Of a stretch of DNA of 64,000 nucleotides, positions 10,772 through 51,345 are shown one piece after another. The first letter of the stretch is position 1; every line of letters begins with the position of its first letter. This DNA comes from Galerina marginata (taxonomy: Eukaryota > Basidiomycota > Agaricomycetes > Agaricales > Galerinaceae), in contig JAECYW010000036.1 in NCBI GenBank assembly GCA_023014335.1, forward strand, positions 62,001 through 126,000, given 5' to 3'. The translations under genes were made by a program, and so were the position numbers. The notes beneath the pieces are model-generated. The model ran no database searches, was not told where the DNA came from, and saw nothing but the letters and a program-made list of their open reading frames with translations.

Positions 10772-10816
10772 GCGTTTCTCTTTCGCTTTGCCTTTGCCCG
10801 CTATTTTCTTAAAGTC

Positions 10817-13734
10817 TCAGGGTATAGCTGATCCTTCAAAAGAATAGATGGTCTTGGTTTTATGAACGTGTTTGTAACAATTGTTTTATCTAAATTGACT
10901 CTAGTATTAACCCTCCCTCGCGGTGGGCTCCAGATGAGATGCTTGCTGCGGGGTGACTCCGAAACACAAAAGAGACGCGGCCGTAGTAGATAGTTTTATC
11001 TCTCAATAAAACCAATCAACCAAACAACCAAAATCTCCTGTAAATCAGACTCTACAAGTGACGCGGACAAAACACCCAATCAATCAATCAATATAATTGA
11101 CTAGTTCTTTTTGGGAGGGACAGAGGTTTTATAATATCGAGAGTCAAATGAGATTTTCAAAGGTTACGCAGCCGCCGCGGACACTTCGTTAATTGACTTA
11201 AGCGACGCGGCCACCACAGAGGTGAACAGGTATAAAGTTTTAATTGGTATTTGGGGTCGATACTGGGACTACACTTCTTGTGTAACTGAGAAAACGGGCA
11301 CTCGGGCGCGTACTGACTTGTCACTCGGGACACTGAACTCGACGTCACTCGGGACGCGTACTAACGAAACTTGGGCCACCAAAACCCTTTACTAACGTGA
11401 ACGTGATAGATACTACAATGTCCAGAACAGTCTACAACCCTCGAAGTTGTTCCTGCTACAGTCCAGGTCTTAGACACGCGGCGCACTACCAAAGTACTCG
11501 TACCGCGGCTAATCGGATGGCCACTGAAGCCTTGTTCAAGTCAATAAAGACAGGTGAAATAGGATCGTTGTTCAAATCTCTCGAATAGTTATCACTCAGA
11601 TCACAAAGGTGAAATTCCGTTATCAACGCGATCAATCAATTGGTTTGAAATTCCTCGAAGTCAAGTTACAATTTTAGAGACTCTTATTGTGCCGCGCAAA
11701 CGACTGGAGTATAATCTCGTGGGTAGTAAATTGCTTGTCTCTACCTATGTAGTTCTACTGCTTTTATAGTACATTAGAGCTGATACATGTGATACATTTG
11801 CGTAAACTACTTGACCAATCTTTAAGACGCGTCCGCGCGCTAATCTGTATGACTTCAATATCCCGCGTTATCTGTGTGACCTCATCAGACATCAGCTTTG
11901 GCAGGTGCTGACTCAAGTATAACGCGTAAGCCTTTCTGATTGGTTGGCTCCTTGCTCGGCTTGTCTGCCGCGTCGGGTATTCCTTCTATTTTTAGCCCAT
12001 CTGATGCCCAGAGAACTTGGAGGTTCTCAGTCATCTCGGACGCGTCCGTATCTAATCTCACTAGAGTCCATGCTGACGCGAACTTGCACAGTCATCCATC
12101 CTAGAGGACATCGGCGAGACGCGGCATCTCTAGGGACGCGTTTGTCGTCATCAGTTGTCTGATGTCAGCAAGTTCCAGACCGGTCCTCGTCTATTTTTAT
12201 ATGTCCGAGTCACCCGATGCTTCTTCGGTCTGGCCGCGGCAATTGCCGTGACGCGATGCTGAGAAGGAGAAGCTCCGTCCATTGCCTAATGCGGAGGCGC
12301 GCGCTAACTTCATTGGCGCTTATCGTGGCCCCATAACCTCGGATAGTAGTCCTTCCTATTTGTACTAGAGACCTGCACTTTCGATTTACTTGTCCAGGCT
12401 GGCCCGCGTTCACAATACCATGAGGCCGCGGCCTTAATGTACAGATTTAATTGATTCTGTAGTTATAAGTCCGTTCTGCTCGCGGCACCTCGTCGCGTAC
12501 GGTAATTTCCTCTAGTCTATGCAGCATATCTGACTACTCGGACTAGTAAATAGTCACTGCATAGATACTCATTCTAAGTTCAAAAATTATATAGGGTTTG
12601 CGAAATGCAAAGGTTTCAGGGCTAGTCTCAAGGCCGTCCCTTCACCGGAGTCACTTCAGAAAAATGATGCAGGCTCACCAAAGCGTCAAATAGTGAGCGC
12701 CGCGGCCGTATTCACCGAACTACAGAGAAGATAATATGGAGTTAGACGCTGAGGGGTGGTGGAAGGTCGTCGAGAGCCGTAGTGACTGCGTAGATGAGAA
12801 AGTGCAGTGTCTTGTGGCCCCAGTGCATGCCGGGCCCGCGTTGAGGAGTGTGTGTGCGCGAAAGTGCTCGAAGGCGGAGGACTGTTGCACTCGAAAGTGA
12901 TGTCAGAGGTCACACGGTGGCTGTGCAGAAAGTACGGGAAGGTGGAGGAAAAGTCTTCTCTTCGTATGATTATATTCTTCTTAATTAGATCCTAGAAGCT
13001 CCTGTACCAATGTGTAAGTAAACGAATGATCAATCTACGATGTTTGTTGTAGTAGCCTCTTGCCATCGCGTGCGACGCGGTTCCGCACTGCTCGACGCGT
13101 CTCCGAGCCCCAGTCGCCCAGGTCCGGACGGATTGGACCACTCCATCGTGAATAAGCGCTGGCCTAACTTGGCGCCGGCACATGATTGGCTCGGCCATTT
13201 GCTCGGCCATCAATCTATCCCAAAATTTGATTATAATTTATTTTTCACATCTTCTCTTGTTGATCCTCCGCGATGTCTACATTTTTTCGTGCGTTTTTTG
13301 TTTGTTAGCAGGTTAGATGACCTGATGCAAATGTAATATTTCCACCAAACAGCTTAAAATTCGACTAACCGAAGCCTAGTATTGATGGAAAGGAATTTAC
13401 GCGGTCGGATAAGCTGTAACCCACCTGCTCCTCGAATTAGGATTTTTCAATACGGACAGTGGGAATTCATCGTATCTCCGAACCCGAGCCATTTCTAGAA
13501 CAGGATTGTACGTTGTTTGATGCCTTTCACAAACTGACCGTGCTGAACCTCTGACCTGGACTGGGAGCTGGCGACGGCAAGAGTTTCAGGCGGAGTCTCG
13601 CTTGAGTACATTATTTCCTGGCTGCTCAGTTGTGGCTCAGTTTGAGTTCCTGGTCCAGAAATGGAGGCGCAGATACGGCGGGACGGAATCCCTTTTCGGA
13701 ATTCTGGATGCTTAGTCATTCCCGGTTTTTTTCA
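10817..13734. other. Non-coding, CGCG-rich stretch upstream of gag
   Basis: No convincing gene on either strand. The stretch keeps the CGCG and CCGCGG density of the retroelement ORFs. It contains short tandem CAAT/CAAC tracts (about 11010-11095, including CAATCAATCAATCAAT) and many in-frame stops. Best guess: retroelement leader and LTR-like DNA. Its outer boundary is not resolved. Confidence 0.4.
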
Positions 13735-27599: not shown

Positions 27600-30500
27600 G
27601 GACTTACAATAGCATGTCGGAGACAAACGGTTTCAGAAACTTTATGTAAATTTGGACGGCCCAGCTACTTTAACTGATTTCGACAAAACAGGGATGAGAA
27701 AATGTGGTTCTAAATTGTGCCGCTGGGAAAGAACTAGGAGAGAAATGTATTAGTATTCGCAGACCCGGAGCGTCAAATCGACTAGAAAGAGAGCGGCTGA
27801 AACTGCTCACATGAGCTTGTACCGACTGCTAGGCGGAACTGCCCATTCTCGTAAGAAAACGGGCAATCAAACGCCAAACTACAAAGAGAACGAGGATAAG
27901 TGAGATAAGTGATACGAGAAAAAAAGCACGCACCCATAGGTTCCTTCATCTCGAAAGTACGGGATCATTCAGACCCACCACGCTTTCCCCGTACCAGCTC
28001 CAGCTCGGGAGGCGCTTCGGTTTCATGGAAAGCAGGCGACTCTCGAAGGCGGCATAGACGACTGGATAACGTTTCCCAGGCAAAGAACGACTATAAAACG
28101 AAGACGGTATAGTGAGGTGAATCCACAAACGGAAAAGCGGACGAAGGCGACTCGTCTGCACGCCTACGGCTAGAGTCATGCCCCGCCAGTCCACGCCAAG
28201 TTCTTCTCCATATCTTCATCTTGGTTTTGCCCTCCTCGTCAGCCGCGATCGCAGCCTCTCCCACATCACAGTCATCCCTCGACGAAGGCGGGGGGAAGGA
28301 GCAGATCTCCTCTACGCGTGACGACGACGACGAAATCCTAAGCATATAATTTCGCTGGGCCATCGAAAGCAGGCTGAGAGGGCTGATCAAGATGATGGAG
28401 GTCTGGGTGACCGGGCTCTGGTGACAGCGGCGACGAGGAGGCCAATAAGGAGATCCAGTCAAAGAAAGCATGTGTGCGGGTAACGGATACGCACGGAGGA
28501 AGGCGACGGGGAATGCAAGGGAGATAGATGTGAGTAACACAGGCGTTGCTGAGCTGATGCTGAAGTCGATGTGGAAGGTCTAGACGAATTTGCAGTCTGG
28601 TGGAGAACAATGAATTGCAGCGTTCTGTATATAGCGATGTTGGACCAGTATTGAGCTCATTGTCGGGTCCTGGCACTTCCACTTCACTCGAACTCCAACG
28701 ACCACCAGAACAAAGGCCGTACACGTCGGACCACATCGCCGTAGGATAACTTCCTGCCTTCTCGGCGTACGTTTGGTAATATCGACTTCATGACAAGCTT
28801 GTTAGCTGGGGAGGCCTAATTGACCAGCTCTGGCGGACATGTAGAGTATAATGAGGTGTCATTCGCCGATCTCCAGTCACGGAGAGATAGAAAACGGGGA
28901 GGTCGTTGAGGTGGTGCCCGCGACGATGGGAATGGATACCGACTATGGATACGGTATATATGCGTATGGAGGAGGAGATCCGGGAGATGGAAGGTAAATG
29001 AGCGGAAGGCTAGTAGGAACGAGTGACGCTACTGACGTAGCAGCCGCAGGTCGAGACCGGGACGTTGTTGCCTATGTTGATGGTGTTGTTCTCGATACTG
29101 AGAAAGTTTTGAGGAAGGTGAAACGAAGTGAGGAGATAGGAGTTGGCGGTAACTGCTATAGTTCAAGAAGGAATCAAGTCGGCGCTGAGGAGGTTGGACT
29201 TGAGCGTGATCCTGAACAAGTGCCAAGCTCGTGCCTGGGTCGCCCAGCTCTCAGTTTCGAGATTCCCGGGATGATGGCAGTCAGCCTGAGCTGGCGTTGG
29301 CTATGACGCACCTAAGAAACTGACTAGTGAGGCATGAATACGCGAGCGCTGAGGCCTGAGGCCTGAGGTCCGAGATGGATAAAGAACTTGATATGCGCGG
29401 TTTGGATGATAGGCCAGGTCGAGGTGGCAGTCGAGGTTCACACCAGCGAGGAGTCCCCGATGAGGGTACAAGAACCATTATTTGCATCGAATGGACTGAG
29501 CTTCAGAAGATCGCGGTTCCATGTTCAATATCCATTCTCAATGCTCGATCTTCGAGGGTTTCTTTCGAATAGGAGACGAGCAACCACTATAAAAAGTTCA
29601 CTCAACTGCAGGCGCACAAGGAGAGCATATTGACTTACCAAGGCGGCGTAGTAGCCTATCATGCCTACCCTAGTAGCTCGGGTCTGGCAATGCTCGGATA
29701 GCACGTCGGGAACAGAGGCAACCTCAACCACCGACTACAGCTGACTAATTGGATGATTTGGATCAATATTCCGGGCCGCTTGCTTGACGCCTCCGAGGTT
29801 GTTTCTCAACGATGACGACTCTGTCCAGCGACTGTTCTATGGGCGCGGCATCCTGAGTGGCTTTCTATCTACTCTTTAGACGATAGTCTCAACAAAAATT
29901 CCAATCACCTTAAGCCAGCCTCCTTGGCTACCTCGACGACGGCCTGTAGATGACCGCTCAGGCTCTCGACCCACCTCACCTCCTTAGCCGATAACGACAG
30001 GTTACGACACCGACCTATCTACTGCACACCCGATTTCGGGTTCTCCTTCCTGACCTGCGAGCCGCCCGCCCTATGTGCGGGCGCGCGATTAGGTGAGAAG
30101 AGTGGGTGGAGAGGGAGAGAGTGATGGCAGGCCGTGTGTGTGGAGCTGAGATGTGCTACGGACATGGTGAACAGTGAGGAAGGTGCATAATGCGTAATCT
30201 GATACTGATGAAAGCAGCAGGAAACTAAGATACCGACCGTCTGTCGTGCAGCTGTCCCATTCTGCGCGCTCTGACCTTGCCGCCAGGCCAATGGCATCCG
30301 AGAATGAGCACATCGAATTTGAGCGTTGAAGAGTGGACGCGGTGGTAATTCAACATCACCTTCAACCTCCTCCATAAAACCCACACCAAAAAGTACAGCG
30401 GCGGGCTCACTTCTGTCCTTCTGCACACACCGACAGATGCTGCTTCTTACCTAGAGCCTATATGCAACCTTGCCGATCCGTCATAGGCCTCGTATGCCTT

Positions 30501-31439
30501 TCATACCAGAAAACACCTCTTATTCTTCGCACCTTGCGCTTCTAAACTGGAGCGGGTAGAAAGGAAAGAGAAAGTCAAAGAGGCAACAAGGTCGTTATTT
30601 GGACTAAACTTTCAGTCACCAGCTACCGTTAAGTTAGATGAGGGCACAAGCAGGATGGGCAGAGAACGCGTACCTCGAATCGACTCTTCAGAAAGCAGGC
30701 TTAAACCTGAAATTCGATGTCAAGTCGCAATCGCAATCACAGTCGCCGCTCCATTTGGTGGAGGAGCGCGTAACCCCAATCGTAAGGCGGTATCACGAAG
30801 GACTATAATTGGAGTCACGAAACCGAGGATGGCATACGCAGGTTCACGTTCTGCATTCGGCTGAGAAAGGTGAGATCTAATGAATTGGTTCGTGTGAGTC
30901 GCTGATAATGGTGCGGCGAATAGGCACGGGATGGCGAGAAAGAGATTGCCGCGGCGGACGGAGAGGAGCTTCTAAAGAGTCCAGAGCGTTACCGCAGTTG
31001 CTGTTCTTATGGATCTCCATAACCAAATTTGTGCGTTCTAAAACCTAGTGTTTTCTCTCCAAAAGTCAATTCCTCCATGAAGACCCGGTGGGAGCCGCCT
31101 GAATGTTCATGTTCACCGCCTGTCAACATCTTGTCAGCTGCTCTGTACTTTACTCCGATTGGTACGATCAAGATGCTGAGCAATTCCGAATTTTCGCCAG
31201 TTCGTCGATGCTTCGAGCGTGTAGGTAAGTAGCACAAAGGTGACTCGCCCATTACCCTCTAAGTGTATGCGCGGCTTCTCCACCAAACGGTCAGGTTGCA
31301 CTGATTGCAATCATTTTACTTTGACCGTACTGATCTCCATGCCGGCTTCGAACATGGGCTAGGATTCTCTAGATAATAATAGCTACCTAAAATTACTGAC
31401 AACTAACATCGTACATGTCAGCCGAATGGAGGCAATTAG
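27600..31439. other. About 3.8 kb without a supported gene
   Basis: Many short overlapping frames on both strands but no splice-consistent chain. Minus-strand frames around 28090-28740 have Pro/Ser-rich, somewhat protein-like composition and may be a decayed gene. 31030-31230 has an open plus-strand block before a GTAAGT donor that might be an upstream exon of the microexon gene; I could not prove it. A small run of GAGGCCT repeats lies near 29350. Confidence 0.3.
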
Positions 31440-34400
31440 GACATTGATTTGATTATCGCGCGGAGGCTGATGCTTAAGTAGATGATCGACCGCATGATGG
31501 CTCATTTTCTCCCCTCTTTCCGCTTCCATCTTCCCAGGGACGAATACATAACCAAGCTCTTAGCGGTGCGTCAGGATGTGTTCCTTAGGTTATGATTTCT
31601 CTCAACACTATTTTAGAACCAGAAACTCCAGAGGGTAGGCGCTTTAATCATCAAGCCACCAACAAAATTGACCATTACCAAACCTCAAGAATAGATGGCC
31701 GAAAATGTAAGCGAGGTATCCGTTTATTTGGGCGAAGACCTCTCAACGTGAAGCCATATTATCATTATTGTAGTTTGTGAGTTTTGTCATTCGTCAACGG
31801 CGTCAAGTCCTTAACCTTTCCCTCTTCGTGTCCTCTAGAATGCAAGCAGATTCTCCCATACTGAGCAGTGGTTATTACGATGCTGATTGTGTTGTTTTCT
31901 CTACGATAATGGCTCGGCTTATCAGTGGGCAAGTATTATCTCTCGGAATAAAAGTTTTAATCCAGGTTTACATCTAAATTTGGGCACCAGGAGGTGCGTG
32001 AACTTGCGGAATACTGGGATTATGTTTGCCAATGCTTTTGCGATGGTAAATCACATTTAGGAAGTATGCGAATATACCTCTTGCTCGGAAAGCGCTTTCT
32101 GACTTATATTTCATCTGAAGAACGTGCGTGGCGACTCAGATACATCAAATATATTAGAAGTCAGCTGACTATTATGGAATGTTGTTCGGTCATTAGACGG
32201 TGAGGCATCTTAACCGGCATAGCCATTAGGTGTCAAATGACTAACTGGAGTTGATACCTGCACAGCCGGTGCGACAGTAGCTTGAACACTGCAGGCGATT
32301 AACTAATGAAGTTGTTTTTCTCGGAAATTCAGGATGTACGTTGAGTCAATCAGATATTGACAAGAATGTGGTAATAAAACTGCCCTTAGAGGTGTCGTAA
32401 GAGAGTAAGTAAGGGTGCTAGGTTGGTGAAATCTCTAACGGAAACACGGTTTGTGTCCTTAGGATGTACGTAAATCCATTAAATATTCTGAGAAATTGAC
32501 TTACAAAAATGCAATGGGTTTGTGTCCTCAGAGAGTATGTGAATCAATTGAATATTCCAAGAAATTGACTTACAAGAATGCGACGGGTTTCTGTCCTCAG
32601 AGAGTACGTAAATCTATTGAATATTCTGAGGAATTGACTTACACAAATGCGACGGGTTTGTGTCTTCAGAGAGTACGTGAATCCATTGAATATTCCGAGG
32701 AATTGACTTACAAAAATGCGATGTGTTTGTGTCCTTAGGAAGTACGTGAATCCATTGAATATTCCGAGGAATTGGCTTACAAAAATGCAACGGGTTTCGG
32801 TCCTCAGGAAGTACGTGAATCCATTGAATATTCCGAGGAATTGACTTACAAAAATGCGATGGGTTTCGGTCCTCAGGAAGTACGTGAATCCATTGAATAT
32901 TCTGAGGAATTGACTTACAAAAATGCGATGGGCTTTTGTCCTCAGGAAGTACGTGAATCAATTGAATATTCCGAGGAATTGACTTACAAAAATCCGACGG
33001 GTTTCTGTCCTCAGAATGTATGTGAATCCATTGAATATTCCGAGGAATTGACTTACAAAAATCCGACGGGTTTGTGTCCTCAGAGAGTACGTGAATCCAT
33101 TGAATATTCCGAGAAATTGACTTACAAAAATGCGATGGTTTTGTGTCCTCAGCTTGTACGTGAATCCATTGAATATTCCAAGAAATTGACTGACAAAAAT
33201 GCGATGGGTTTGTGTCCTCAGCTTGTACGTGAATCCATTGAATATTCCGAGGAATTGACTGACAAAAATGCGACGGGGTTGTGTCCTCAGTTTGTACGTG
33301 AATCCATTGTTAATCCGAGGAATCGACTTACAAAAATGCGACGGGTTTCGGTCCTCAGGAAGTACGTGAATCCATTGAATATTCCGGGGAATTGACTTAC
33401 AAAAATGCGATGGGTTTGTGTCCTCAGTATGTACGTGAATCCATTGAATATTCCGAGGAATTAACTTACAAAAATGCGACGGGTTTCGGTCCTCAGTTCG
33501 TACGTGAATCCATTGAATATTCCGAGGAATTAACTTACAAAAATCCAACGGGTTTGTGTCCTCAGGAAGTACGTGAATCCATTGAATATTCCGAGGAGTG
33601 GACTTGAATATGAAAATTCTCAGTCGGTACATGAATCCGTTGCTTTTCTTCTGCTTTCTGTCACTCACTCTCACCATCCTTTTTTCATCTCAATAGCGAG
33701 TAAGTGTACTGCTGTCCAGTATTACCTGTTATTTATCTTTTACTTACTTTATTTTACAGGTGGTGCATCTTTTACTCCATTCTTTTTTGTTTTTTCTTGC
33801 CAACGTACATGTTAAAGAACAGATACCCCACCTGTAATTTCACTATATTTTCTAGATGGTGTATTCTCCGTCACTCATATTTTTTACTCCAGTGATCAAT
33901 GGCGTCATTAACGCATACATTCATAATCATCTTCCAATTTTCCTTCTAGATCTTGAACAAATGCAACTTGTCCATAGAGGTGCTCTTGCGACCGTTTTAT
34001 TGGACAAGACAACAATATTTATGGAACATTGTACCAACAATGTGTCTGAGAAAGACGTTCACTCTATTACCACAAACTGGATAACTCAGGAGACATCATA
34101 TTCAATTCTTTCCCATCGATGGCTTCCTGGTGGCGAGTTGGCATTTACTGATATATTAAAATTTGCAGATTATCAAGGCATACTGCGCGAGTTGATCAAA
34201 TTTGACTCTCCAAGTCAAGGTGCAAATATTGCGATCGAGGTGATTATTGTTGTTATGAACAGTGCAATCCACACTCAGTCAAACTGCCCAGTTGGACAAC
34301 CCTATGAAGAAGTCGTACCAAGCGTTGTTTCCAGCCGATCAAAAAGAAACCCGCTTTCCAAGCTTCGTAAAGATCATCATCTTTTTCTGGATCTCCGCTC

Positions 34401-35407
34401 AACGCTCCTGCCGCTTCGTTTGGTTTGACTCCGGTTGTATTAACAAAAGCAGTAGCGCCGAGCTTGAGGAATCAATTCGATCCATGTTTAATTGGTACTC
34501 CAAATCCAAGGTTTGCATTGTGCACCTTGCCGATACCACAGACGTGGAAAGCTTTCGTAAAGATCAGTGGTTTACACGAGGCTGGACTTTACAAGAACTC
34601 TTGGCGCCGAAAAGCCTGAAGTTCTTTCATGGGAAATCATGGAGACCCATAACAACCTCTTCCTTCAACGATGATGATAACGACAAAATCGCTAATTCTG
34701 CATTAAAGCAACATCTCTGGAATCACATCTCGGATATAACAGGGATTTCACCGGACCACCTCACCACATTTAATTCCGGGATTGACCATGCCAGAGACGC
34801 TCTTGTGTGGTTATCAAAACGGAAGACAACCCGGATCGAAGACATGGCCTATTGTCTCATTGGTTTATTGGGCGTTCCACTTACCATCGCTTACGGTGAA
34901 GGGGAGATGGCATTTTATCGATTGCAGGTAGAGATTTTCCAACGTACCGCAGACATAGGACTATTTGTCTGGCAGGGACAGTCATCGGTCGGCAACAGCA
35001 TGCTTGCGGCTAAGCCAGAGAGTTTTTCATCTGAATCGTCTTTCACGATCCAGCCATTTTCATCCTCAACATCAACAGACAATATCGACCCGTCTTCCTC
35101 GTTGACTAACCTCGGCTTGCGGATCTCGTTATGGGTTTACAGAATTCCAGCCGACAAGTGGTTCATGGACAACAGTAAACAGAAAATTACTTTGGCCGAA
35201 CCGTTGAATATCACTCTGAAGCTCCAAGCCGGCCAAGATTATGACCTCTTCGAGCTCGCTTTTCTTGGCACGGTAGACAATCGAGGGTCCCTCGCCATCT
35301 TGCTAGGCTCCAAAGCCGGCCAATGGAAACGGATATCAAGCGACTACACCTTCCTACATCATGATTGTCCCAGAGGCACTTCCCTCCAAATGAGATTCAT
35401 TCGCTAA
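31440..35407 (+). CDS. HET-domain gene whose 5' half is a series of codon-sized microexons
   Basis: Model from splice signals. Early exons: 31440-31477, 31538-31565, 31617-31634, 31695-31706 (ATG GCC GAA AAT). Three-base exons follow: 31774 TTT, 31839 AAT and 31926 TGG (both with GC donors), 31991 GAG, 32061 GAA, 32121 AAC, 32197 ACG, 32266 CCG, 32333 GAT, then one of 15 nt (32390-32404) and 32463 GAT. Then come 17 from the repeat array, then 33697 CGA, 33760 GTG and 33856 ATG. Introns are 51-93 nt, mostly with a CTNAC branch site. Read together the exons stay open and encode a charged, helix-like linker. The last part enters the HET exons at 33950. To reach the HET frame one needs either a 7-nt form of the CGA exon (donor at 33704) or an intron 33980-34089. 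The true 5' end is not known. All of this is inference from signals and needs RNA data. Confidence 0.5.
32466..33623 (+). repeat. 69-bp tandem array: 66-nt intron plus one variable codon per unit
   Basis: Seventeen units start at 32466, 32535, 32604, 32673, 32742, 32811, 32880, 32949, 33018, 33087, 33156, 33225, 33294, 33362, 33431, 33500 and 33569. All are 66 nt plus 3, except one of 65 nt and a shorter last unit of 55 nt. Each unit begins GTACGT (twice GTATGT), has CTTAC or CTGAC about 35 nt in (the last unit only CTTGA), and ends TCCTCAG or close to it. The three bases after each acceptor are, in order, AGA, AGA, AGA, GAA, GAA, GAA, GAA, AAT, AGA, CTT, CTT, TTT, GAA, TAT, TTC, GAA, TCG. 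The neighbouring intron ends hardly change. Because 69 is a multiple of three, long unspliced frames exist on both strands (23-residue repeats); I regard them as by-products. Confidence 0.9.
33950..35407 (+). CDS. HET (heterokaryon incompatibility) domain coding region
   Basis: Two coding segments, up to 34239 and 34292-35407, join in phase across a 52-nt intron. HET-domain landmarks occur in order: SYSILSHRWLPGGELAFTDI, then FVWFDSGCINKSSSAELEES, WFTRGWTLQELLAP, and later ARDALVWLSKRKTTRIEDMA with YCLIGLLGVPLTIAYGEGE. HET domains are found in fungal non-self recognition and cell-death proteins. The C-terminal 130 residues are Ser-rich and then beta-like, ending RGTSLQMRFIR. An ATG at 33961 would give a protein of 464 aa without the upstream microexons. 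With them, the HET domain would sit behind a codon-by-codon variable linker. The reading frame is intact. Confidence 0.85.
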
Positions 35408-36088: not shown

Positions 36089-39000
36089 GACACATGCAAT
36101 ACCACCCCTGCAAAAAGCAGATCACGTGCATCACGGTATCGCCCGTTGGGCTGGAACGCACATTGGAGGTGTTGGCGGTGGGCAATTCGTACGCAGATAT
36201 AAACACATACAAGTCTATTCAATATTTAGTCAAGATAAAGAGTATTTTTAGTGCTATCCCTCCATGTCTGAGGGTTTTTGCGGCGCCTTTTGTCTTTGCC
36301 AATATCCCCACCGACTTCCTCTACTTTCTGAAACATATTGGCGAAAATGGATGCCATCTTTGGATGAATTCCAGTCGGGCTCGCTGCAACACCTAAAATA
36401 TCATCAAAACATCTCTTTAAATTCATTATTTTCGCAGGAGAGAAGTGGATCTGAGGTCAAAGTTGAGCAATATGTCAGGATTTCCGTTATCAAATGTTTT
36501 CTCACCCTTGGTTCGTCATCTTCAGGGTCCTCGCCTACCGTGCCCACGGTGTCATGTTCCGTCAACGAATTATCCAAGCTGCCACTTTCCTCTTGCCTTG
36601 TTCCCTCCAGACCTCCACCGTCACCCGAGTCTTCGTTTCCGGAACTTCCTGTGTCTGACCTCAAACTCTCGCTCCCTTCTCGAGAACGAGTCCGCATTTC
36701 GGCGGTGTACCCTCCTAGGATCAGGATGCCTTGTTGATCGTCCTCGAGCTCCTCTCTATGTTCATTGGGTTCCGGACTATGGATACCGGGTATGTCATAG
36801 AAAGGCGCATCCCGAGCTCGACATAGCCTGGAAAAGAAGCGGAGGTTGGTACAGGGATTGCCGTTTAATGTCGTATTTGCCTTCCTAACAAGATGCTTGC
36901 AGAGAAGGAATCTACTCGTTAGGTATGACGGACAACTGCATGTCCACTTGTCAACACTCGTGTGGTGAGTTCCTCGGTCGCGCATCTCTTCTTCTGCGAT
37001 CTGCGCTAACCTTTCTTCTCGTTCCTTTCCTTTTAGATTGCCCTTCCGCACAGTGAGCTCTTTCTGCACGAGGCGCTCCTCGTCAGACTTGCCCATGTCG
37101 ATCCACTGTCTTTTAAATTCAGTTTGCCATGGTGCAAGAGCTTTCGCGCGGCCAATGCGTCGCCTCCCGAGCACAGAATCTATTGTCAGCTGAACCCGTG
37201 GAAGAACGCCGGAAATAACAAGGTGTGTGACGAGATCCAATCTTGGTCGATTAAATTGTGCGAGATCACGGCGTTTGAAATGTTTCCACAGATTTTCGAC
37301 GACCATAGTTGTTTTCAGACGGGATATCGAATGTGAGGCTGATCGCGCCCATAGGGACCATTGGTTGGGCGTGTACCAACGGTTCCACATGTATGCCCAT
37401 ACCTGGCTGAGGTTGTTTTCGAAACAATACTGATACATGTCCTTGACGGCACCGTGGTGTATTTCTTCAGCCGTAAAATATGTTCCCTTCTCATCGTCGA
37501 ATGGGATTGCTGGATGCTGGTGGAAGTGTATCCGAAACTTGGCAACGATCATGGTACGGTGTTCCTTTCCACAAAATATTGGGCGGTCGGTTTCTGATAT
37601 CTTCGGCGGCGCCGGCCAGATAGGTATCCTTTTATTTCCTACTGTAATGACCAGGACGGGAGGTCGACAAGTTCTTTCCTTATGGTATATGAGCAATTTC
37701 GAACAGTTGGAAGTTTTGCTACCCTGATTCTGACCTTTGATATATCCACATCCGGGGGCATGGGTTCTGCGTCTTGCTCCACTTCAGCATCGCTCTCGTG
37801 GACACCCTCTTCTATCCAACCAGAGCTCACACCTGGAGCCCATGTCGGATCAATGAAGTTAAATACCTTGTTTGCACGGATAGCGCTGTATTTCGCAGGT
37901 GGTTTGTCCTGGGCAAGCCTCTCTTCAATATATCTGACACCGTGCCAATAGCAGAGTTGGTGCCGTGCATGAGGGATTTCCGTTCGAAAGCCATTGATTT
38001 CAGTTAAGTCCTTGTCGGATAAGGTGAACTTTATGTTAGCGCATTTTTTGGCGACAAATCTGATAACAGTTCGTAGAAGCCGGTCCTTTGCGCCTTCCAA
38101 TGCCGTGCCGTCCGTTGACGCGGTGAAACAAAATGCTAGTGGGACAGCTCGCCCGTTTAACTCCCCAACGAGACCATAGAGCTCATAGCCAGCGGCGTTG
38201 GTTTTCCCTGTAAGTAATTAATCAGTAATTGACCTTCCGAAACATGTTTGGTGACATACATGTAGAATCCATAGCCACTTCAACGATGTCACCCCCAACG
38301 TCTTCAAGAATCCCTTTGAAGGTAAATGCGACCGCGCTGATCCCGTCTTCGCGGATGGTTGGAATAATCTCGACTTCGTGTCCTTCCTTACTCTGTAGTA
38401 GTTTGGTGGCAGATGAAACTTGATCGTCGTCCAATCGCCATTTCTCCTCGTTCAGTTGGGCCCAACGAGCATAAATTTGCTTCTCTGTCAACTCTCCCTG
38501 CTCCTTTTGTGCGAGAATTGAATCCCATGCCTAAATGAATGTATCTGAGTTCCATTACCTAAAAAAAATTACCTTAGCTCACCTTCGACGCAGGCATATT
38601 GATCATGCTTTGAATGATTGCGTCAACTTTATCTGTCATCGAAATGTCGACATATTGGGAATGGGGTCGATGGTGAGTGATTTTTACCCCAGCTAAGTTG
38701 GGACTGCCATCCACCATCGTGATCCTCAGCCTTCCATTGCATTCAAAGCGGTCCATAGTCATCCTGGCTCTCCTTTTTTTGCTGTTCTCATTCAGTTTCT
38801 GTTTTGTTTCCTCGCCGTGTAGCTGGGCACAGAAGAAGGCAAATGATTTTATAGAGTCAGAGGTTCTGCTCTTCTCGCATTTCTTATACCTGTTGTTTCG
38901 ACGTGAGTTTCAATGCAATTGTTTAGAAAGAATTGACCGCCTTACACGAATCGGTACCCTGTGGCCTTCCATAACTTGTTGCCAATGTCTCGCGCTATTT

Positions 39001-39937
39001 CATGATTTCCAGCGGCTCGTTGGTCTTCCAAAAGGTCTGTGAGATTAATCTCGGCATCTAGTTCAAAGGCGTCTGATCTATGTTTAGTAACCAAGCCTAT
39101 AAAGTCTCCCCAAGATAAGCTCATGCGAGATTCCGTGCCGTCGCGTGCCTCAGGACCCTTCCTTTTTGGGGGTGTCCGTGAACCCTCCTCATCGAGAGGC
39201 GGGTCCTCTTTCTCTCCGCGTTTACTTTGCCTGAAGGTCTGTTGCTTTGCTGTGCAAGCATGGCACGTTTTAAGAGGCTTTAGATTTCGTCCGCGCGGGA
39301 ATGCTTCTGGCGCGAGCTTATTCATGCAACGCGAGCACTTAACCGTTCCTTCTATTACATGTTGAATTTGATGAAACTTCATGTCGGAAAACTATAGCTA
39401 GCATACCTGAGCTCATTTGCGTTGTTCCGAGTGGTGAAAAACAATTTAGCATGAAAAGAAAGTGATTTGTTGGCTTGTAAATCCTCATACGCGTCGGACG
39501 TCGTGAGCTTCTTTTTAATTAATGCATGTGGATCGTGATCGCATTGTCGAGTACAAAAAGAGTAAAAAATTACAGTACCTCAAGGAATCGATCCCAAGTC
39601 CTTCTCGAGAGGCACTGACGTGAATTAGTTCACCTCTTTTAACCAACTCTTAACGCATATTCAACAGACTCGGCCAATCTACCGTTGTTGATTGAAAATT
39701 TTTATTCGGATAGGCTATGTTAGACTTAGGTCGTGTTTTAAGGTCTACGTGCAACATATACTTTATAAATTGCTGTATTTCGCAATTTGGCCATACAATA
39801 AGTGCAACTACTGTTCAAATCCGTGAAATACGACGACCTACAGGCAATTGTTATCACTTTTACCGAAAAAGGAGACACACCGGAAGAGGCCGGAATTCAC
39901 GTGATCTGCTTTTTGCAGGGGTGGCATTGCTCGAGTC
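36089..39937 (-). mobile_element. Complete MULE (Mutator-like) DNA transposon with TIRs and target duplication
   Basis: 40-bp terminal inverted repeats at 36089-36128 and 39898-39937 share GCAAT then CCACCCCTGCAAAAAGCAGA and TCACGTG, with differences only in the outer 15 bases. The ends are flanked by a direct repeat, GGCGTCATG, at 36079-36087 and 39938-39946 (a tenth base differs). A 9-10 bp duplication is the MULE norm. The inside is filled by one transposase gene, so the element looks autonomous and recent. Confidence 0.88.
36404..39382 (-). CDS. MULE transposase with N-terminal CxxC finger and SWIM zinc finger (about 924 aa)
   Basis: Five exons in phase: 38946-39382, 38583-38889, 38260-38530, 37723-38207 and 36404-37678; the fourth intron is only 44 nt. 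The N-terminus has a two-pair Cys finger (CSRC ... CHAC). Residues further on read ITHHRPHSQYVDI, then the transposase core with AMDSTWKTNAAGYELYG, the catalytic region FTLSDKDLTEI and HQLCYWHGVRY, and near residue 700 a SWIM finger, WTCSCPSYLTSRFLLCKH. These are the usual parts of basidiomycete MULE transposases, which cut and paste the element through its TIRs. No internal stop is seen. The C-terminal 100 residues are acidic and Ser-rich. The gene starts at an ATG at 39382. Confidence 0.88.
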
Positions 39938-39946
39938 GGCGTCATG
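39938..39946. repeat. Right target-site duplication of the MULE
   Basis: GGCGTCATG, matching 36079-36087. Confidence 0.8.
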
Positions 39947-43659: not shown

Positions 43660-45518
43660 CTAAGCCTTTGTAGCCTCAGGCCTGGCGCTGGTGCTCGTTG
43701 GGTGAACCTTGGTGACTTTGGGCTTAGGCTTCGTCGCCGCAGGCCTAGGTTGAACTTTTGTAGTCTTGGGCTTAGGCTTCGCAGCCGGCGGCCTCGGGTT
43801 AGCTTTTGCAGCCTTAGGTTGAACCTTGTTACCCTTGGGCCTGGCGTTCGTACCTTTGGGCTGAGTACCTTTAGGCTTAGCCTTGGTAGCCGGGGGGCGA
43901 GGGTGTGCCTTCGTAGTCTTAGGCTGAACCTTGCTACCTTTTGGCCTGGCGCTCATACCTTTAGGCTTAGCCTTCGTAGCCTTAGGCCTGGATGTCGTCG
44001 CCTTCGCCTTCGCCTTCATACCCGTAGGCTTAGCTTTCACCGCCTTAGACCCCGGCTTCGTAGCTTTGGACTTGGCCTTCGCCGACTTGGCCAAAGATTT
44101 AGCTTTCGCGGCCTGAGAGCTGCACTTGGCATCGGAATGGGTCTTGCTTGAAATCTGCATAGACCCCGAAAAGGTCAAGGAGGACGACCGATCGTTGATG
44201 TTCGAGAGCACGGACGCGATGTCAACGGAATCTATATGACTGAAATTAGTACTGCTCTTTGACTCGTAGGATATGAAGCCCACATTTATAATGTTTGCCC
44301 CCATTTGGGTCGCTTTTAGACGTGCGCTAAAGAGAAAGGTCAGCAACTGCCGCCTTTGGATGATGAAGTTGGTAAATACAGCGTCGTCGTAATTGAACCA
44401 CACGTAGCCGGTTGCAACGTAAGCAGCGGATCCTTTGCCCTGGACATTACACGTCTTCGTTGTTATCTGTAATGTAGATGTAGCGTCCCAATCGCCAACT
44501 AAATAAAAGTATAAACATACCGTCCCTAGACAGTTTTGGCCATCCCCAACGTTATAGGTGATAGTTTGAGTAGTTTGGTCGCTAGCAGTAGTTGAGAAGC
44601 TGTGGCGAAACCGTTATCATGCTTATTTCTCAGTCTCAGTGGGATAAAAACTACCTGTTGGCAAGTGAATTGGTAATAGTTGCGGTTGTGGTAATACTGG
44701 CTGATACGTCGGCAACTTCTGGAATTCCTACGGTGACGCTGAGCGAGGCGCCTACAGCTAACGAGCTTTCCTCTGTAATTGATGTGATCAGTTAAAGCTT
44801 GAAATATAATCGAGTAACTTGACTTACGCGTAACCGTCCATGTTCCTGTGTTTGAATAACCCTGCTGAAGGGAGATACTGTTCTGTCCTGACGTTCCTTT
44901 GGATCCGCTGTCCATCTGGCTAGAAGTCGAGGTACAGCTCGGCGCGCCTAGTTGAAAAAATTAAACGTGTACAGCCAAGGCACGGTGATTCTTACCCTGT
45001 ACCTGAATCGGTACTACACCATCCTTCAAACAGACGACCGCAGGACGGTCGGGATACTGGAAAAAAAAATTTAGTCCTCGGCGAATTTTTTCAAAGGTTG
45101 AACTAGCTGACCTCTGATGGGTTGACCACAATGTTCACGCCACCACCACCATAAGTATCTGAGGCATATTGTTGGATTTTAGACCACCCCGGTACTGATC
45201 ATGGTCAGAATATTCGAATCCAAAGCATTTCTGTGGATAGGCTCACATTGTTTTAACTGCTCTATCGACAATGGAGAGCAGCCTGACGCTCGTGGGTATA
45301 TCGATGCGACGTCTCCGTGGTAGTACGAATCTTCATGGGTATGCTTGATGACATGCTTGATATCTGCAGATCCTGCGATTTTACTAGCTGGAAGTGCGGA
45401 GGCGAGCTGTATGCCACTGAAAAGGAACAAAACCTAGGATAAGAAGAAGTAAAAATTAGCTGACCGCCTGTAAATATGTAGAAGCAGAGATACTGACAAT
45501 ATATTTGGAGGTCATCAT
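43660..45518 (-). CDS. Secreted protein with aerolysin-like region and long Lys/Ala/Pro tail
   Basis: Multi-exon gene; approximate exons are 45498-45518, 45170-45433, 45070-45160, 44995-45060, 44830-44950, 44525-44800 and 43660-44403. The first two exons encode a short hydrophobic signal peptide. The middle shows a long Ser/Thr-rich stretch with alternating small polar and hydrophobic residues (44590-44800), as in the pore-forming module of aerolysin/ETX-MTX2-like proteins. It is followed by a beta-rich block containing VWFNYDD and DRSSSLTFSGSM. The final 150 residues are a repetitive basic tail of KAKPKG, KVQPK and RPPA units, like a histone H1 tail. Family assignment rests on pattern only. 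If correct, the protein belongs to a group that includes membrane-damaging proteins; activity here is not shown. Exon borders are not exact. A TATA-like CTATATAAT lies near 45646-45654, minus strand. Confidence 0.5.
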
Positions 45519-47006
45519 AGAATGGCGGCTTTTATTCTGGCGAAGTTTGGATAATGCAAAGAACGATGGGTCAACCAAGTTCTTCGTAAGAGATAAAGAA
45601 AGAGACCAGCTCGATCGTTGTATTTTCCTGAATCCTTGAGCCACATTATATAGGAATTCCGAATTGACCTTGGGTTTGGAGACATGTAATTGTGAGTTTG
45701 TAACCACGAAAGGCATGCGGACGGTTTGAATAAAAATAGATATTCCAGGGTTTCCCAGTAACCAAGGCGCAGTCAAGAGTTACTTCTTTTGATCAACTAG
45801 GCACGGATAGCAACATCAAGGCGCCTAACAGATCCAGTAAAAGACATCTTCGAGGTTGCTGATGCCGACGCCACATAAAGATGTGGGCGCGTCGGTCGTT
45901 AGTTCTCAATTCAGACACTGGCCTTGGATGTATGCCATTCATACCTGTGAATTTCCCTACGTCGAAAACTAAGATAAATTTGCACATTTTGTTTGCGCAG
46001 ATGGCTTCACCGGACACGGGCTTGGGACATTCCTATTTCTATGGCACAGCCCTCAGCGTGGATTTGTACTTTGAACCGAGATAATTGGTTCTTGTTGACC
46101 GAAATAGACATCCATGAAATTACTTCAGGTAGACAGGCTGTCATCAGGGCAGATAAGGACGTTGTAACTACCATCAGCTGGAAAATACCACGACCATCTT
46201 TCTCAAGCAGTCGTTTCAATTGTTGGAACAATGGACAATGAACAAGGTAACTCTTCACTCTGACAGGTAGCCGTCTATTATATTAAGGACCACTCAGATG
46301 ATGTGACGGAGAACCAACTCATCGCTTTCGAGGTAACGAATAACGTGCCCCGTCTTGTCGGGAACGTTTGACAGCGTGTGGAGAAAGTCCTCCCACATTG
46401 CGAAAGTTGCTTTGCTGGGTGTGTATATCGAAGACTGCGTCGACGTTTAGGTTGGCAGGCGGGTAGGGTCAAGCCGCCATTCAACCAATTGCCTAGGAGG
46501 AGGTTGAGTAATCCGAGTGCTGTGATTCCTGAAAAGCGCCGTTAGGATATCATAGAAGTATCTAGCACTTCGTAGATCAATTGTGATGAAGTGAAAATAA
46601 CCAATGCAACATTAGGCCCTCAAACCGTCACTTTTACCCTAACATTTGTGAACGCTCGCTTCAATCTCCGACCGCAGCCATTGGGTGGGTGGCCTCAGCC
46701 AACTCGAGATCGAAAAGCATGCTCTCACCGCCCTTGCCGATATACCTAGGGATATATACGTTGAGAGGACGATTCAATGTTACACGGGTTTTACTGCCTA
46801 ACAAGAATTACACTATTGATGAAACGAGCCTTCTTTCTGTTTCTATCAAATCTTCGCCATTTCTTTCCCTTCAAAGAAATTCCATCTTCTGTTTCGGTAT
46901 ATTTTGAGAGTTTCTTTTTTACCTCTTCTCCGGGGTGTGTAACGCATGAGAATTCTGAAGAGAACAAATTTGTCAAATGTATTAATATGTACACGTTGGA
47001 TGTTAA
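45519..47006. other. No firm gene
   Basis: Short frames only. A plus-strand block at about 46000-46240 (with EITSGRQAVIRADKDVV) and a minus-strand block at 46330-46530 look coding but end quickly in stops. They may be remnants. Confidence 0.3.
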
Positions 47007-47885
47007 TTATGCATGCGTCTCAAATCCCCCAATTATTCCCTGCTTTTGAACCGGAGAGAGAGGAATATTTTGATCAATCCCAAGGTTTTTCCTCTCTCTG
47101 AAATTTTCTGACAACCGTCGCCGGGTGTGTAGAATATAAACGCGCCATACGCCCAGTAGCAGGGTTAAAAAACCAAGAACTCCTAGACAAATTCCTACAA
47201 TTTCTCCTTTACTGAGTTTGGGTTTGCTGGGTTCGCCAAAGATGCAAGAGTGATCGGCTAGAGAAAAGACGGTCAAAATAATATCAATTAATTCAGGTAA
47301 AAATCGACGCTCACTACTATCTTGAATGTTGAAAGGAGTGGACTGGTTGGATACACCGACGCCATCAACAACATTCAGAACAAAAGAATCACCGACTTGA
47401 GTCGAAAGTTGAGTTACAATTTTGTTTATTGTAAAATTGGGAGCTCACCGAAGGCCAGCGATAAATCAAAAACCCAATTGAAAGAAGTGCCGTTCTGAGG
47501 CTCGAATTGCACAAGTTGGGTAAGGCTTTCGGCCGTCTGATTGTTTAGATTACTAGCCAGAAATAAGTAATAGCAAAGTATTCTCGGCTTTGGAAGGCAT
47601 ACTCCTCGTCAAGACTAAATGCGTAAGGGGCTATAGCCGACAGAGATCAGCATTTGGCTTCCCAGGGATATGGAAGCACTCACGAGTTCCCCCGGACCAG
47701 GTAAGCGTGAATGGTTTACAGACGGCGACGGTTCCACTAATTTGAAGGTCAACTAATTGAGTGTCAAAAATTCTAGTGGAGTAGGACGACCGAATTACTC
47801 ACGGATTATTGACCATCAGAGGCTCAAAGGCAACGCCCCTAGCCGCGAATAACGTAGCAGTGGAGAGGGCAGCAAGGAACTTCAT
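47007..47885 (-). CDS. Single-pass membrane protein with secreted Ser/Thr-type ectodomain (199 aa)
   Basis: Six exons, all in phase: 47803-47885, 47684-47736, 47603-47630, 47449-47552, 47315-47395 and 47007-47257. It starts MKFLAALSTATLFAARGVAF, a signal peptide. The ectodomain has the pattern CKPFTLTWSGGT then PPYAFSL, common in secreted and anchored basidiomycete proteins of unknown function with an Ig-like beta fold. Two N-glycosylation sequons (NQT, NGT) are seen. Near the C-terminus IVGICLGVLGFLTLLLGVWR forms one membrane helix, followed by basic residues (HTRRR) that set a cytoplasmic tail. Role: probably a cell-surface protein. No catalytic motif is seen. The exon phases agree well, so the model is fairly sure. 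Confidence 0.72.
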
Positions 47886-50615
47886 TTGGGAGCAGAGACT
47901 ATAGCTCAGGGATTGGGCGTAAGGTAAAGGCTACGGAGGAAAGACGAGAGCTATTCGAATTCGCGATATTTTTATGTATCACTGCGGCAGCTCAAAGCCT
48001 GTGGGAAGTTCCTCATTTTGGCATGCATCTGTCAACATGCGGTCTGGTGACAAAGTCGTGTAGTTTATCTATACACGAGGCACGCTGATTTGAAGATAGT
48101 AGGTACTTAGAGATACGGCTTCATGAGACCGCTGTAGTGAGTGCGCTGAGGTGCCCAAGCCTCAATTATAGATCGCACAGCCTTTTGTGAGTAATCTTGG
48201 AGTAATCCCGCTTCCAATCCTTATACCTGTCGCGTCTGCCTTATATACGAGAGCTGACCAGCTGTTTTTTGCGCTCTTCCTCCTGTTTTGTGATCCTTTT
48301 GGTTCCTGTTTCGCATCACTCGGGATCACGCTTCAGCAACAAACGCTCGTCTGTCCGCCACGCTCGTCCTCTGTACTCGAGACGACACAGATCCGGACAC
48401 CATGACTTCCGATTTCCTTTTTCGCAAGAGGATGCGGACGTCAGTCAGACACTGGAAAACCCCAAGATGGGTGTCGCTGATTATGGAACTGCCTCGGTTA
48501 CCCAACTTACACGTGTCTTATGCTCTTTTGTCGGACGTCCTTTCTGACCTGCGCTCTGACCTGCGCTGTTAGTTACCCGACGAGTCTGTCCTGAGTGCAC
48601 TGACGGGGTGAGTGACTTCCTTTGCCTCCTTCCCTTTCTTTTCAACTTACCCCCCAAACTTAGCTTTCCGCGACCCATCTTCGTTTTCTCAAGCAAACAG
48701 ATCCTTGCGTTCGGACTGAACTCTACTTCGATCTTTGTTTCAACTTCGGCGTCAGCACCGGCATTACGTCGACTTTAGCGCCTACCTTTTCAGCAACGAA
48801 AGGAGGATGTTATTCAACTATTCCTCCAGACCCAAAGCTTCAGTTTCCATTGGCATTTCGCCGTCAGCACTATTTAGTACCCAGCCTCTGAATTTACCTC
48901 AATAAGTAACCTCCTTTTGTATCTACTCAATGTTTTACGAATTCTGAACTACCATCACTTTTTCATCATTTGCGGCCTACCCGCCCTCGCCGTCCTCGCC
49001 CATCTCCTTGTCATGCTCGCTCGGCGTCGTTGGGCTGCGATGATACCCCCGGCGGGAGATGCCATCATTGCAGTTAGCTTTCCCTACACCCTCCAATTCG
49101 CACTTCTCGAATGAGGCGTCGACACCACGGCCACTGCCGATGACGGGCCTGAGAAGTTAGAGCGTATTTTCGATAATTTTTTCCTACCATGAACTCTGCG
49201 GGATGTATGACCCAATTGTTTAGATATGAAGACTTTCCAGTCCCACACTTGGCTGTCTGCCAGCAGTTTGTCGGACTCGACAATAGAGTTCCCGTAATCC
49301 CTTTCCTAATTGATAAACCTCCGAGGGCTATACCTTTATTCCACTCCAAGACTCCTACATGTTTTGCCAACGTGGCCGCACATGTCACGAATTTAAGGTG
49401 AGTTCTTCCTACTCCGTGCTCGAGGTAATTTTGCTGAAAAACTCACGTCTCAATAATAGTGGGCAACCGATAATCCGAAATAAGGCTTGTATAAATTAAA
49501 CAAACTGTGACAGCACAATTTATCGCCTTCTCAGACCTCAGCATATGTCGCCAGCTCTTCGGAAACATCGATAACTTCCTTCTCCAGCGCTTATTGTAAT
49601 GTAAGTGGGATTATTTTCAAAAACTTTAACTATGCCTAAAAAAATGCCATGAGAAGCTTCAACCATGACGTACCGACGTATGCAGTGCCGCCAATGGGAA
49701 AGGCGACCTGAAACTCAACTTTACAACAGAATGATTAAAATTGCGTGATTGCTCTTTCCGCTGCGTTATCGTACATGCCACCAGTTATGACGACCTTTCT
49801 GTCCCACACTTGTTCGGATCCGAGGATGACTTACTCCCACCGCCCCATTTATGGCAATTTCTGCCATTTCCGAATGCATATATACATATTCCGCTCCACA
49901 TTCCCCACTGTCTGCCAATGTGCTCCGAGGGTGGAGGTTCTCCCTGCATATGTTATATTTTCTCATCCTATATACTTACATCTGATAACGGATAACTTGG
50001 GATGTCATTAAACGACGACATGTAAAGTATTAACATATGGGAAATCGCAGAGGTTGACGTCAATTCTCTTCAATATAACGTTAGTGTAACTGATAAGAGA
50101 ACCTTTCAAGTCAACTGACAATGTAGTACGCTGAAGGCTTGATATATTTTGTTCACTAATGACGAACAGTTGAGAGACAGGAATATCTCACCTGAACATC
50201 ATGCACGGTGCACGAATCGCCTTTTCTGGAGACTGGCGTGCCTCCGCTTAGGAATATGTTATCAGTGTTCCCAAATCATAATTGCTCTTTTTCTTTATTG
50301 TTGACAGCGTGGTAGGATGTAGTTCCGGAACCATGGGCGAGTAATTCGGTGTCTCCCTTATCAGTGATTCTTTCGCTCAACGGTGCCATCCTAGCAGGCA
50401 TTTGTGGAGCCTGCCAAAGTACGGAGAATTTTCAAAGTGTTGCGCAATTTCTGATCTGCTTTGCGTGTTTCAGTGGCATTGGCACCCTCATCTTTCTCGA
50501 ATACAATTCCACACTGTTCGCTGAAGAATGAATAAAAGGCGACTGGATTTTGAGCGTTCTATAACTGAAAACGCAGCGTCTTCAGCTCTAGTTCTCTACC
50601 TACCGCATTATCAAT
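47886..50615. other. No gene seen; weak internal repeats
   Basis: Only short frames. Two stretches share blocks: 49230-49335 and 49799-49935 both contain GTCCCACACTTG, CTGTCTGCCA and CTCCGAGGG in the same order, and a third weak relative may lie at 52780-52850. They look like decayed dispersed repeats. The 50350-50615 stretch is the promoter side of the next gene, with an ATAAAAGG box near 50532. Confidence 0.35.
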
Positions 50616-51345
50616 ATGTTCGCCTCTCGATTCTTCGCCTCCTTTTTGGCCCTCAGCGCTATTGCGGCCTATGCTAGTCCGGCCCCCATCGAGGTCCAAA
50701 AACGCGCCGATGTATCCAACGTGCTTGGTGTCGTGAGCACCCTCCAAAGTGCTACATCGTCTATTCTTCCACAGCTCAGTACGTTGGTCAAGCTGCATCG
50801 TCATTTTTCAAGTCCTGATTTGTTCCTCCAGATTCTCTCGCAGGAAGCAATCAAGCCACCCAGGCCAATATTTCTCCTCTTCTCACCCAACTAGTCGGCG
50901 CTTTCAATACTGCATCTACCTCCTTGAACGGCATTGGCCCCGTCGATGCCACCTCCGGAGGAACCTCTCAGGATGTCGCAACCGCTTTCGCCCCTATCCT
51001 CATTGTAAGTTACATCGCATCTATATAGCAAGAAATTTGGCATTAACTGGCGTTGCTTGTACGTCAGGAAATCGCTATCACGTTGAAAGCTGTCGAGGCA
51101 GCCGTTCCAGGCCTTCCGGTTGTTTTGGCAGGTATCGGGTTTGACCTTGCTGTTGACGAAGTCCTTATTGGATTGGGCATTGTGCTCGATGGAGTCCTTC
51201 ACCTTATTGCTGGATTGTAAGGCATACTGCTTATACCCGAAGGCAAGATGCTAACGTACCCACTCTATCCCCAAGGTTGTTTGACGTTTCTGCTATCTTG
51301 CGAAATCTTGGATTTGTCCTCACCCTTCTTACTCTCGTGCTGTAG
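50616..51345 (+). CDS. Small secreted protein with Kex2 site, copy A (184 aa)
   Basis: Four exons, 50616-50778, 50832-51004, 51068-51216 and 51276-51345, in phase. The N-terminus MFASRFFASFLALSAIAAYA is a signal peptide, followed by a short pro-region ending in KR, a Kex2-type cut site. The mature part is Ala/Ser/Thr/Leu-rich and probably helical (NVLGVVSTLQSATSSILPQL), with a GPVDATSGGT turn. The C-terminal third is very hydrophobic (VVLAGIGFDLAVDEVLIGLG and VLTLLTLVL). There are no cysteines, so it is not a hydrophobin. It may bind surfaces or membranes; no family is assigned with confidence. The copy at 54065-54799 has the same exon lengths. A box ATAAAAGG lies about 85 bp upstream of the ATG. 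Confidence 0.82.

Follow-up and report, generated by a model that had tools for sequence, protein, structure and literature searches.

The window, that is, the whole 64,000-nt stretch of Galerina marginata DNA that was analysed, carries on its forward strand a HET-domain ORF preceded by a long series of triplets enclosed between splice-like sites (Table 1). Thirty triplets follow one another between 31774 and 33762, each with an AG on its left and either GT (28) or GC (two, after the triplets at 31839 and 31926) on its right, which bears out the two GC-AG introns and the invariable AG acceptors described in an earlier note on this DNA. A chain search for AG-NNN-GT/GC sites in which agreement with the splice consensus was rewarded gave this series a score of 188 (30 members), whereas the best control reached 14 (two members) among 114 windows of 2.1 kb taken from both strands of the same 64 kb, plus-strand windows over the array being left out. 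The 29 putative introns between triplets measured 55-84 nt and the two flanking ones 67 and 93 nt, giving 55-93 nt overall; from the range of 51-93 nt given in the earlier note the upper bound was recovered, while the lower bound in the window is 55 nt. In a nearby alcohol-dehydrogenase-like gene (family assigned by eye), two gaps between ORFs, 53 and 62 nt long, look by eye like introns that begin with a GTRNGT donor and end in a TAG acceptor, so that the introns of the array would be of ordinary size for this region. The series is composite. Its first ten triplets are separated by mutually unlike introns, while the following seventeen belong to a tandem array whose 69-nt unit consists of one codon plus a 66-nt intron, with a single 65-nt intron after 33291.

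Table 1. Features of the predicted gene (positions in the window)
Feature	Positions	Strand	Evidence or remark
Start exon ATG GCC GAA AAT (MAEN), donor gtaagc	31695..31706	+	Aligned ATGG in 6 of 7 copies
Ten single-codon exons with mutually unlike introns	31774..32404	+	Flanked by AG and GT/GC in all 7 copies
Their codons	31774 TTT, 31839 AAT, 31926 TGG, 31991 GAG, 32061 GAA, 32121 AAC, 32197 ACG, 32266 CCG, 32333 GAT, 32402 AGA	+	
Seventeen single-codon exons of the tandem block	32463..33568	+	TRF array, motif list, chain search
Their starts	32463, 32532, 32601, 32670, 32739, 32808, 32877, 32946, 33015, 33084, 33153, 33222, 33291, 33359, 33428, 33497, 33566	+	
69-nt tandem repeat, 16.8 copies, 89% match	32448..33605	+	TRF
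Last three single-codon exons: 33624 TCG, 33697 CGA, 33760 GTG	33624..33762	+	AG/GT in other copies too
HET exon with distal acceptor (TAG ending at 33855)	33856..34219	+	Phase 0 with codon series
Proximal acceptor CAG of HET exon	33890..33892	+	AG kept in 7 of 7 copies
Putative small intron, 43 nt, joining two HET ORFs; uncertain	34220..34262	+	
HET-domain ORF to stop	34263..35407	+	Pfam HET PF06985, dN/dS

DNA and protein searches of the whole genome (69.3 Mb, 43 contigs) identified six further copies of the gene, L009 to L014, carrying 28, 28, 28, 28, 23 and 26 triplets, which makes 191 triplets with those of the window. Taken with the chain score, these copies uphold the earlier claim of about 30 codon-sized exons that follow at a spacing of three bases. 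Donors over the 191 triplets were GT in 178 cases and GC in 13, the acceptors were CAG (138), TAG (42), AAG (8) and GAG (3), and the introns between triplets ranged from 51 to 85 nt (n = 184). Since the chain search itself demands the AG-NNN-GT/GC spacing, a second count was anchored on the intron core alone; by eye, 100 of 101 units kept AG-NNN-GT/GC in its usual context, the one exception being a unit of L014 in which the context is lost and a shifted AG-TTT-GT lies nearby. The last three codon exons also showed one exception, L013, where a deletion removes the equivalents of those at 33624 and 33697. Within the non-repetitive part of the series, two out of 44 splice-dinucleotide columns varied among the seven copies compared with 208 out of 627 columns inside the introns (Fisher P = 1.4e-5), and both variable ones were C/T changes at the second base of the donor. 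When the series was slid by 1 to 12 bases in either direction, 6 to 19 columns were variable, as against two in the unshifted position.

Read behind the ATG at 31695, the 191 triplets contained no stop in phase 0, 22 in phase 1 and two in phase 2. For the tandem units, 0 of 92 codons were stops versus 8.1 expected when each codon position was permuted, a value of zero being reached in none of 20000 permutations; a slightly wider set without L011 gave 0 of 86 versus 8.1. When each of the 19 distinct triplets was counted once, stop avoidance was not significant (P = 0.17). As the units are related by descent, the permutation test overstates the effect, and its true strength lies between the two counts. 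The start ATGG was aligned in six of the seven copies, with start exons of 12, 12, 27, 27, 15 and 15 nt and a conserved donor after them. Because the start exons used for the frame analysis were picked by a script that requires an in-frame ATG, their phase is given by construction, and it is the aligned ATG that supports the start independently. L012 lacks the aligned ATG; there, an in-frame ATG further upstream gives a start exon of 96 nt. Part of this longer exon repeats the beginning of intron 1 (GTAAGCGAGGTATCCG-like), which was apparently absorbed into the start exon.

These data change the upstream part of the model. The earlier note had counted four larger exons (31440-31706) as coding, which is not supported. 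Translation more probably starts with the ATG at 31695, also the first base of the range given in that note, and in L012 the stretch of the supposed upstream exons carries a 1-nt deletion and a rearranged segment. Accordingly shortened, the spliced sequence would measure 102 nt from this ATG to the HET exon instead of the roughly 200 nt once expected, with the predicted product MAEN-FNWEENTPDRDRRREEEENRLLFEYFESRV. What that note called a plausible charged linker consists in large part of 13-17 hypervariable codons, which follow a conserved FNWExNTPD-like lead. On the 3-nt spacing, openness in phase 0, donors that only exchange GT and GC in the non-repetitive part, and the presence of an in-frame ATG exon and, in six of seven copies, an in-frame HET exon, a gene with about 30 codon-sized exons appears to be the reading that best fits the seven copies.

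Downstream of the series, the larger HET ORF matched the Pfam HET domain (PF06985) at 40.2 bits, with a cut-off of 22.5 (E = 5.6e-10). A Pfam scan of 33856-34218 plus 34265-35404 at E up to 0.1 returned this domain and a sub-threshold bDLD3 match only; neither a NACHT domain nor WD repeats were found in the two HET ORFs at that limit, which sets the gene apart from the NWD/HNWD type. The HET ORF is under purifying selection (dN/dS 0.22-0.39 in 15 pairs from six copies, L011 being left out as near-identical to L010), and it is broken in two of seven copies, split over two frames in L009 and interrupted by a TGA in L014. Exon 33895-34219 had few changes among the copies other than L014, and no clear ratio could be read from its values of 0.41 to 5.3. 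Proteins similar to the HET ORF are numerous (5775 among 8000 scored). The nearest named ones among the best 120 listed were partial models of Galerina marginata, one 87% identical over 63% of the query and the other 83% identical over 67%; a Psilocybe cyanescens protein reached 60% over the whole query, with metagenome proteins of 69-70% ranking ahead of it among the matches listed. The two HET ORFs need either a 43-nt intron or a frame change at their joint, and the choice between these is uncertain: all seven copies have a frame change or a small intron within 34190-34300 of the HET coding region, while proteins of other species read through the region of 34220-34262 without an intron.

How the series is connected to the HET exon depends on two acceptors. 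With the distal one, a single frame stays open from the start exon across the series to the HET exon in six of six copies that have this acceptor, L014 being without it; joined to the proximal one, the series runs at once into a TGA or TAA in seven of seven. The distal acceptor would thus lead to a fusion protein in this species, or the two acceptors may be alternatives; fusion is rated more likely. One could also imagine that the series is spliced codon by codon and yet remains unfused to HET, releasing a free peptide of about 30-60 residues, or that the choice of acceptor switches HET on and off. In keeping with such an arrangement, the proximal AG and the stop behind it persist in every copy, and among seven proteins of other species compared by eye, P0001, P0004 and P0030 start at the V that this acceptor would provide, P0003, P0005 and P0014 have no similarity ahead of that V, and P0002 has a loose one. 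We hold it to be unlikely, given the open frame that the distal acceptor provides wherever it exists and the absence of an evident start for the HET exon without fusion, the ATG at 33856 being AAG in L009.

The codons of the tandem block are hypervariable on uniform introns. Over the 92 tandem units of the seven copies, differences per site amounted to 0.66 in codons and 0.10 in introns, and among the 82 units that measure 69 nt, diversity was 0.68, 0.67 and 0.55 at the three codon positions, compared with a maximum of 0.47 and a mean of 0.097 elsewhere in the unit. Forty-four pairs of units had identical introns; their codons differed in 27 pairs and agreed in 17, of which 13 occupied the same position in L010 and L011, two the same position in L013, and two were neighbours in L012. 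Three units of L010, for instance, share the same 66-nt intron and carry the codons CTC, GCG and AGA. L010 and L011, which lie on two contigs resembling two haplotypes of one region, differed at five sites over ~4.8 kb, two of which turn one codon exon from ATA to ACT while a third affects the adjoining donor. Adjacent units had the same codon in 20 of 82 cases, compared with 12.6 after shuffling (P = 0.01), as expected if the block grew by tandem duplication. Counted from the 5' end, paralogues agreed in 1-5 of 13-15 codons outside the L010/L011 pair, and the window and L012 in none.

Selection for amino-acid change would be the most likely cause of this diversity, but tests at the amino-acid level gave weak or neutral results: the synonymous share of differing pairs was 0.024, compared with 0.030 (sd 0.004) in permuted sets, and for pairs differing by one letter it deviated in the opposite direction (0.122 versus 0.106 permuted). 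Helix propensity of the codons was above that of permuted sets, a value from which we draw no claim as the units are not independent. The ten older codons behaved differently, with 11 of 30 positions variable compared with 208 of 627 in intron interiors (P = 0.69); they vary as the intron interiors do, so rapid codon change is peculiar to the tandem array. When the ten older introns were compared with the 69-nt unit, those at 32333 and 32402 resembled it (z about 3) and the other eight stayed below 2. With only two of them alike, a single origin of the whole series is not supported.

Several other readings of the array have to be weighed against codon-by-codon splicing. The whole series might be removed as one large intron, with the triplets serving as recursive-splicing ratchet points that are mostly skipped and the peptide rarely or never made. 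Sites that stand 3 nt apart are indeed hard to use together, skipping is frame-neutral, and the ten older codons are no more conserved than the introns around them. At a recursive ratchet site, however, the acceptor abuts the donor directly, leaving an exon of zero length, and here three bases separate AG from GT/GC in 191 of 191 chain members, a spacing that the search itself demanded. The lack of phase-0 stops among all 191 triplets, the start and HET exons standing in phase with the series, and the fact that the fast-changing site is the codon and not the intron also speak against this reading, which we likewise regard as unlikely. A dead minisatellite, in which tandem duplication in a decaying gene merely carries splice-like motifs along, would account for the true tandem array of the 3' block and for the two broken HET ORFs; it is very unlikely, since the ten older units hold the pattern in seven copies with mutually unlike introns, the dN/dS of the HET ORF is low, and a neutral repeat would hardly focus its variation on the one codon between splice sites.

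Mobile introns of the introner type, inserted at codon boundaries into an exon that was once of the ordinary kind, could place near-identical introns between unlike codons, and introner-like elements have been reported in fungi (PMC4457414). We give this origin scarcely any credence, as the codons of paralogues disagree, contrary to an old shared exon, and the exact codon spacing would remain unexplained. Introners form dispersed near-identical copies in unrelated genes; when the array was used as a DNA query against the genome, it matched the seven copies only (13 matches, seven candidates scored, to be taken as a lower bound). That the array is an unspliced coding repeat of 23 residues, one of them hypervariable, has next to no chance of being true, even though the unit is 69 nt long and 77 of the 82 introns that measure 66 nt contain no stop in that frame, for no such repeat is common to the ten older units. 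The best frame of the whole series contained 16-27 stops in each of the seven copies, 17 of 101 tandem-type introns were not multiples of three, and diversity by codon position (0.106, 0.084, 0.099) had no third-position excess. As for a structured RNA, no Rfam match at the gathering score was obtained for 31000-34500, and three units folded no better than their shuffles (z = -0.76).

The array was confined to this group of copies in the searches made. None was found at 22 more distant HET relatives of the same genome (L023-L044, with ~1.5 kb of flank each), L025 giving a chance chain of three with a score of 5.5. In other species, the unspliced repeat as query returned nothing at E 0.001 (8000 candidates scored), and a search with residues 1-110 of the protein predicted here was equally negative at that limit (20 candidates). 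Two of the gene copies lie on C30, the contig of the window, and five on C43. These contigs match in reverse order (window 18600-51000 against C43:248000-305400), with 97% identity between window 45001-51000 and C43:248279-254288, a drop to 88% and 71% nearer the gene, and 78-82% on the other side. Such a pattern would be expected of two haplotypes whose gene cluster is divergent and variable in copy number, a state that balancing selection can produce, while it may instead represent a segmental duplication. Of the features of fungal heterokaryon-incompatibility (het) genes, whose alleles cause incompatibility or cell death on fusion, the locus shows the HET domain and divergent haplotypes.

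We consider it probable that the locus encodes a HET-domain protein whose N-terminal peptide is assembled from about 30 consecutive one-codon exons and forms a hypervariable recognition segment. Each short intron would be recognised as such and spliced out. Simultaneous use of sites 3 nt apart is hardly possible, and we therefore infer that the introns are removed in sequence. Joined in phase 0, the codons would then link the ATG exon to the HET exon. The 3' block, of 13-17 codons, could gain and lose members through tandem duplication of the codon-plus-intron unit, and unequal exchange or conversion would keep the introns uniform within and between copies. What maintains the codon diversity of the units would most likely be selection that favours new recognition peptides, another process being possible. 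If the gene resembles HET-type allorecognition genes, its peptide is probably the variable part of a cell-death protein that serves in recognition or regulation. We would give about even chances to a broader proposal, in which the gene is a codon-by-codon diversity array: the intron would act as a recombination scaffold, the exchange of units would rewrite the recognition peptide residue by residue, and in-frame skipping could add splice variants. Since skipping leaves the frame intact however many codon exons are lost, a single gene could yield many peptide variants; on the other hand, with so many of the 66-nt introns open in phase 0, retention of a single intron would also be in frame.

In anatomy the gene is closest to the micro-exon genes (MEGs). 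These are defined as having at least seven exons, at least half of them micro-exons (<70 nt and a multiple of three), with a run of at least four (PMC7653826), and the predicted structure, with 23-30 consecutive 3-nt exons in each of seven copies, would fall within this definition. Like the MEGs of schistosomes and tapeworms, it has many consecutive, very short exons in multiples of three that can be skipped without loss of frame (PMC7653826, PMC10526429). MEG exons are mostly of 15 nt (range 6-81 nt), 10-20 in number, with introns of ~100-5000 nt (PMC10526429), whereas here all internal exons are of 3 nt, about 30 in a row, the introns measure 51-93 nt (51-85 nt between codon exons, below the long introns of schistosome-type MEGs), and part of the series is a tandem repeat. 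The likeness is anatomical, and no homology is claimed. The bicycle genes of aphids, which evolve fast, also have numerous internal exons that are unusually small and share one phase (PMC9168663); they are in phase 2, with ~17 exons on average and no single-codon run in the accessible text (PMC9168663), whereas the present exons are in phase 0. That the spliceosome can use exons of 1-3 nt is shown by a 1-nt exon in Arabidopsis APC11, another in Fusarium CYP621A and a 3-nt exon in Drosophila homothorax; as described in the sources available, those are isolated, whereas here they form a run.

For the variability, the HET-domain genes HET-D and HET-E of Podospora (NWD) offer a model by analogy, with repeats that evolve in concert and few positively selected codons per repeat (PMC1805685). 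They resemble the present gene in combining a HET domain with uniform repeats that hold few variable codons. Their repeat, as far as the accessible text describes it, is a coding WD-40 unit with four strongly selected codons, whereas the uniform part here would be an intron with one exon codon per unit, so that the intron would take the place of the scaffold. The PRDM9 zinc-finger arrays likewise contain near-identical repeats with hypervariable codons; those repeats are coding, whereas here the scaffold is intronic. We are aware of no gene in which a variable part of the protein is kept codon by codon in repeat units, and our literature search, with most subscription journals and bioRxiv outside its reach, brought up no report of a run of single-codon exons. 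The anatomy may thus be that of a micro-exon gene at its limit, with a possibly new principle in the way codons are diversified. If spliced as read, it would to our knowledge be the longest known run of single-codon exons and a natural test of the spliceosome on sites 3 nt apart, thirty successive times; introns that serve as a uniform scaffold for codon diversification would, if confirmed, be a new route to a hypervariable peptide. Exons this small are easily overlooked by gene finders, and similar arrays may therefore sit unnoticed in other genomes.

The neighbourhood of the gene has some further features. Upstream of it, window 27840-30340 has no sensible long ORF, and a stretch ~75-84% identical to it lies upstream of other copies. 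Between the HET gene and the next shared stretch, 36100-39940 is a possible transposon, 71-76% similar to sequences on C41 and C26, with an ORF (36404-37696) that gave a sub-threshold SWIM match. Diverged tandem repeats of 48, 21 and 63 nt (TRF), possibly encoding a repetitive protein, occupy 43718-44081. Window 10001-12650 is a repeat element with six further near-full copies on other contigs at 96-98% identity, which indicates that it was recently active.
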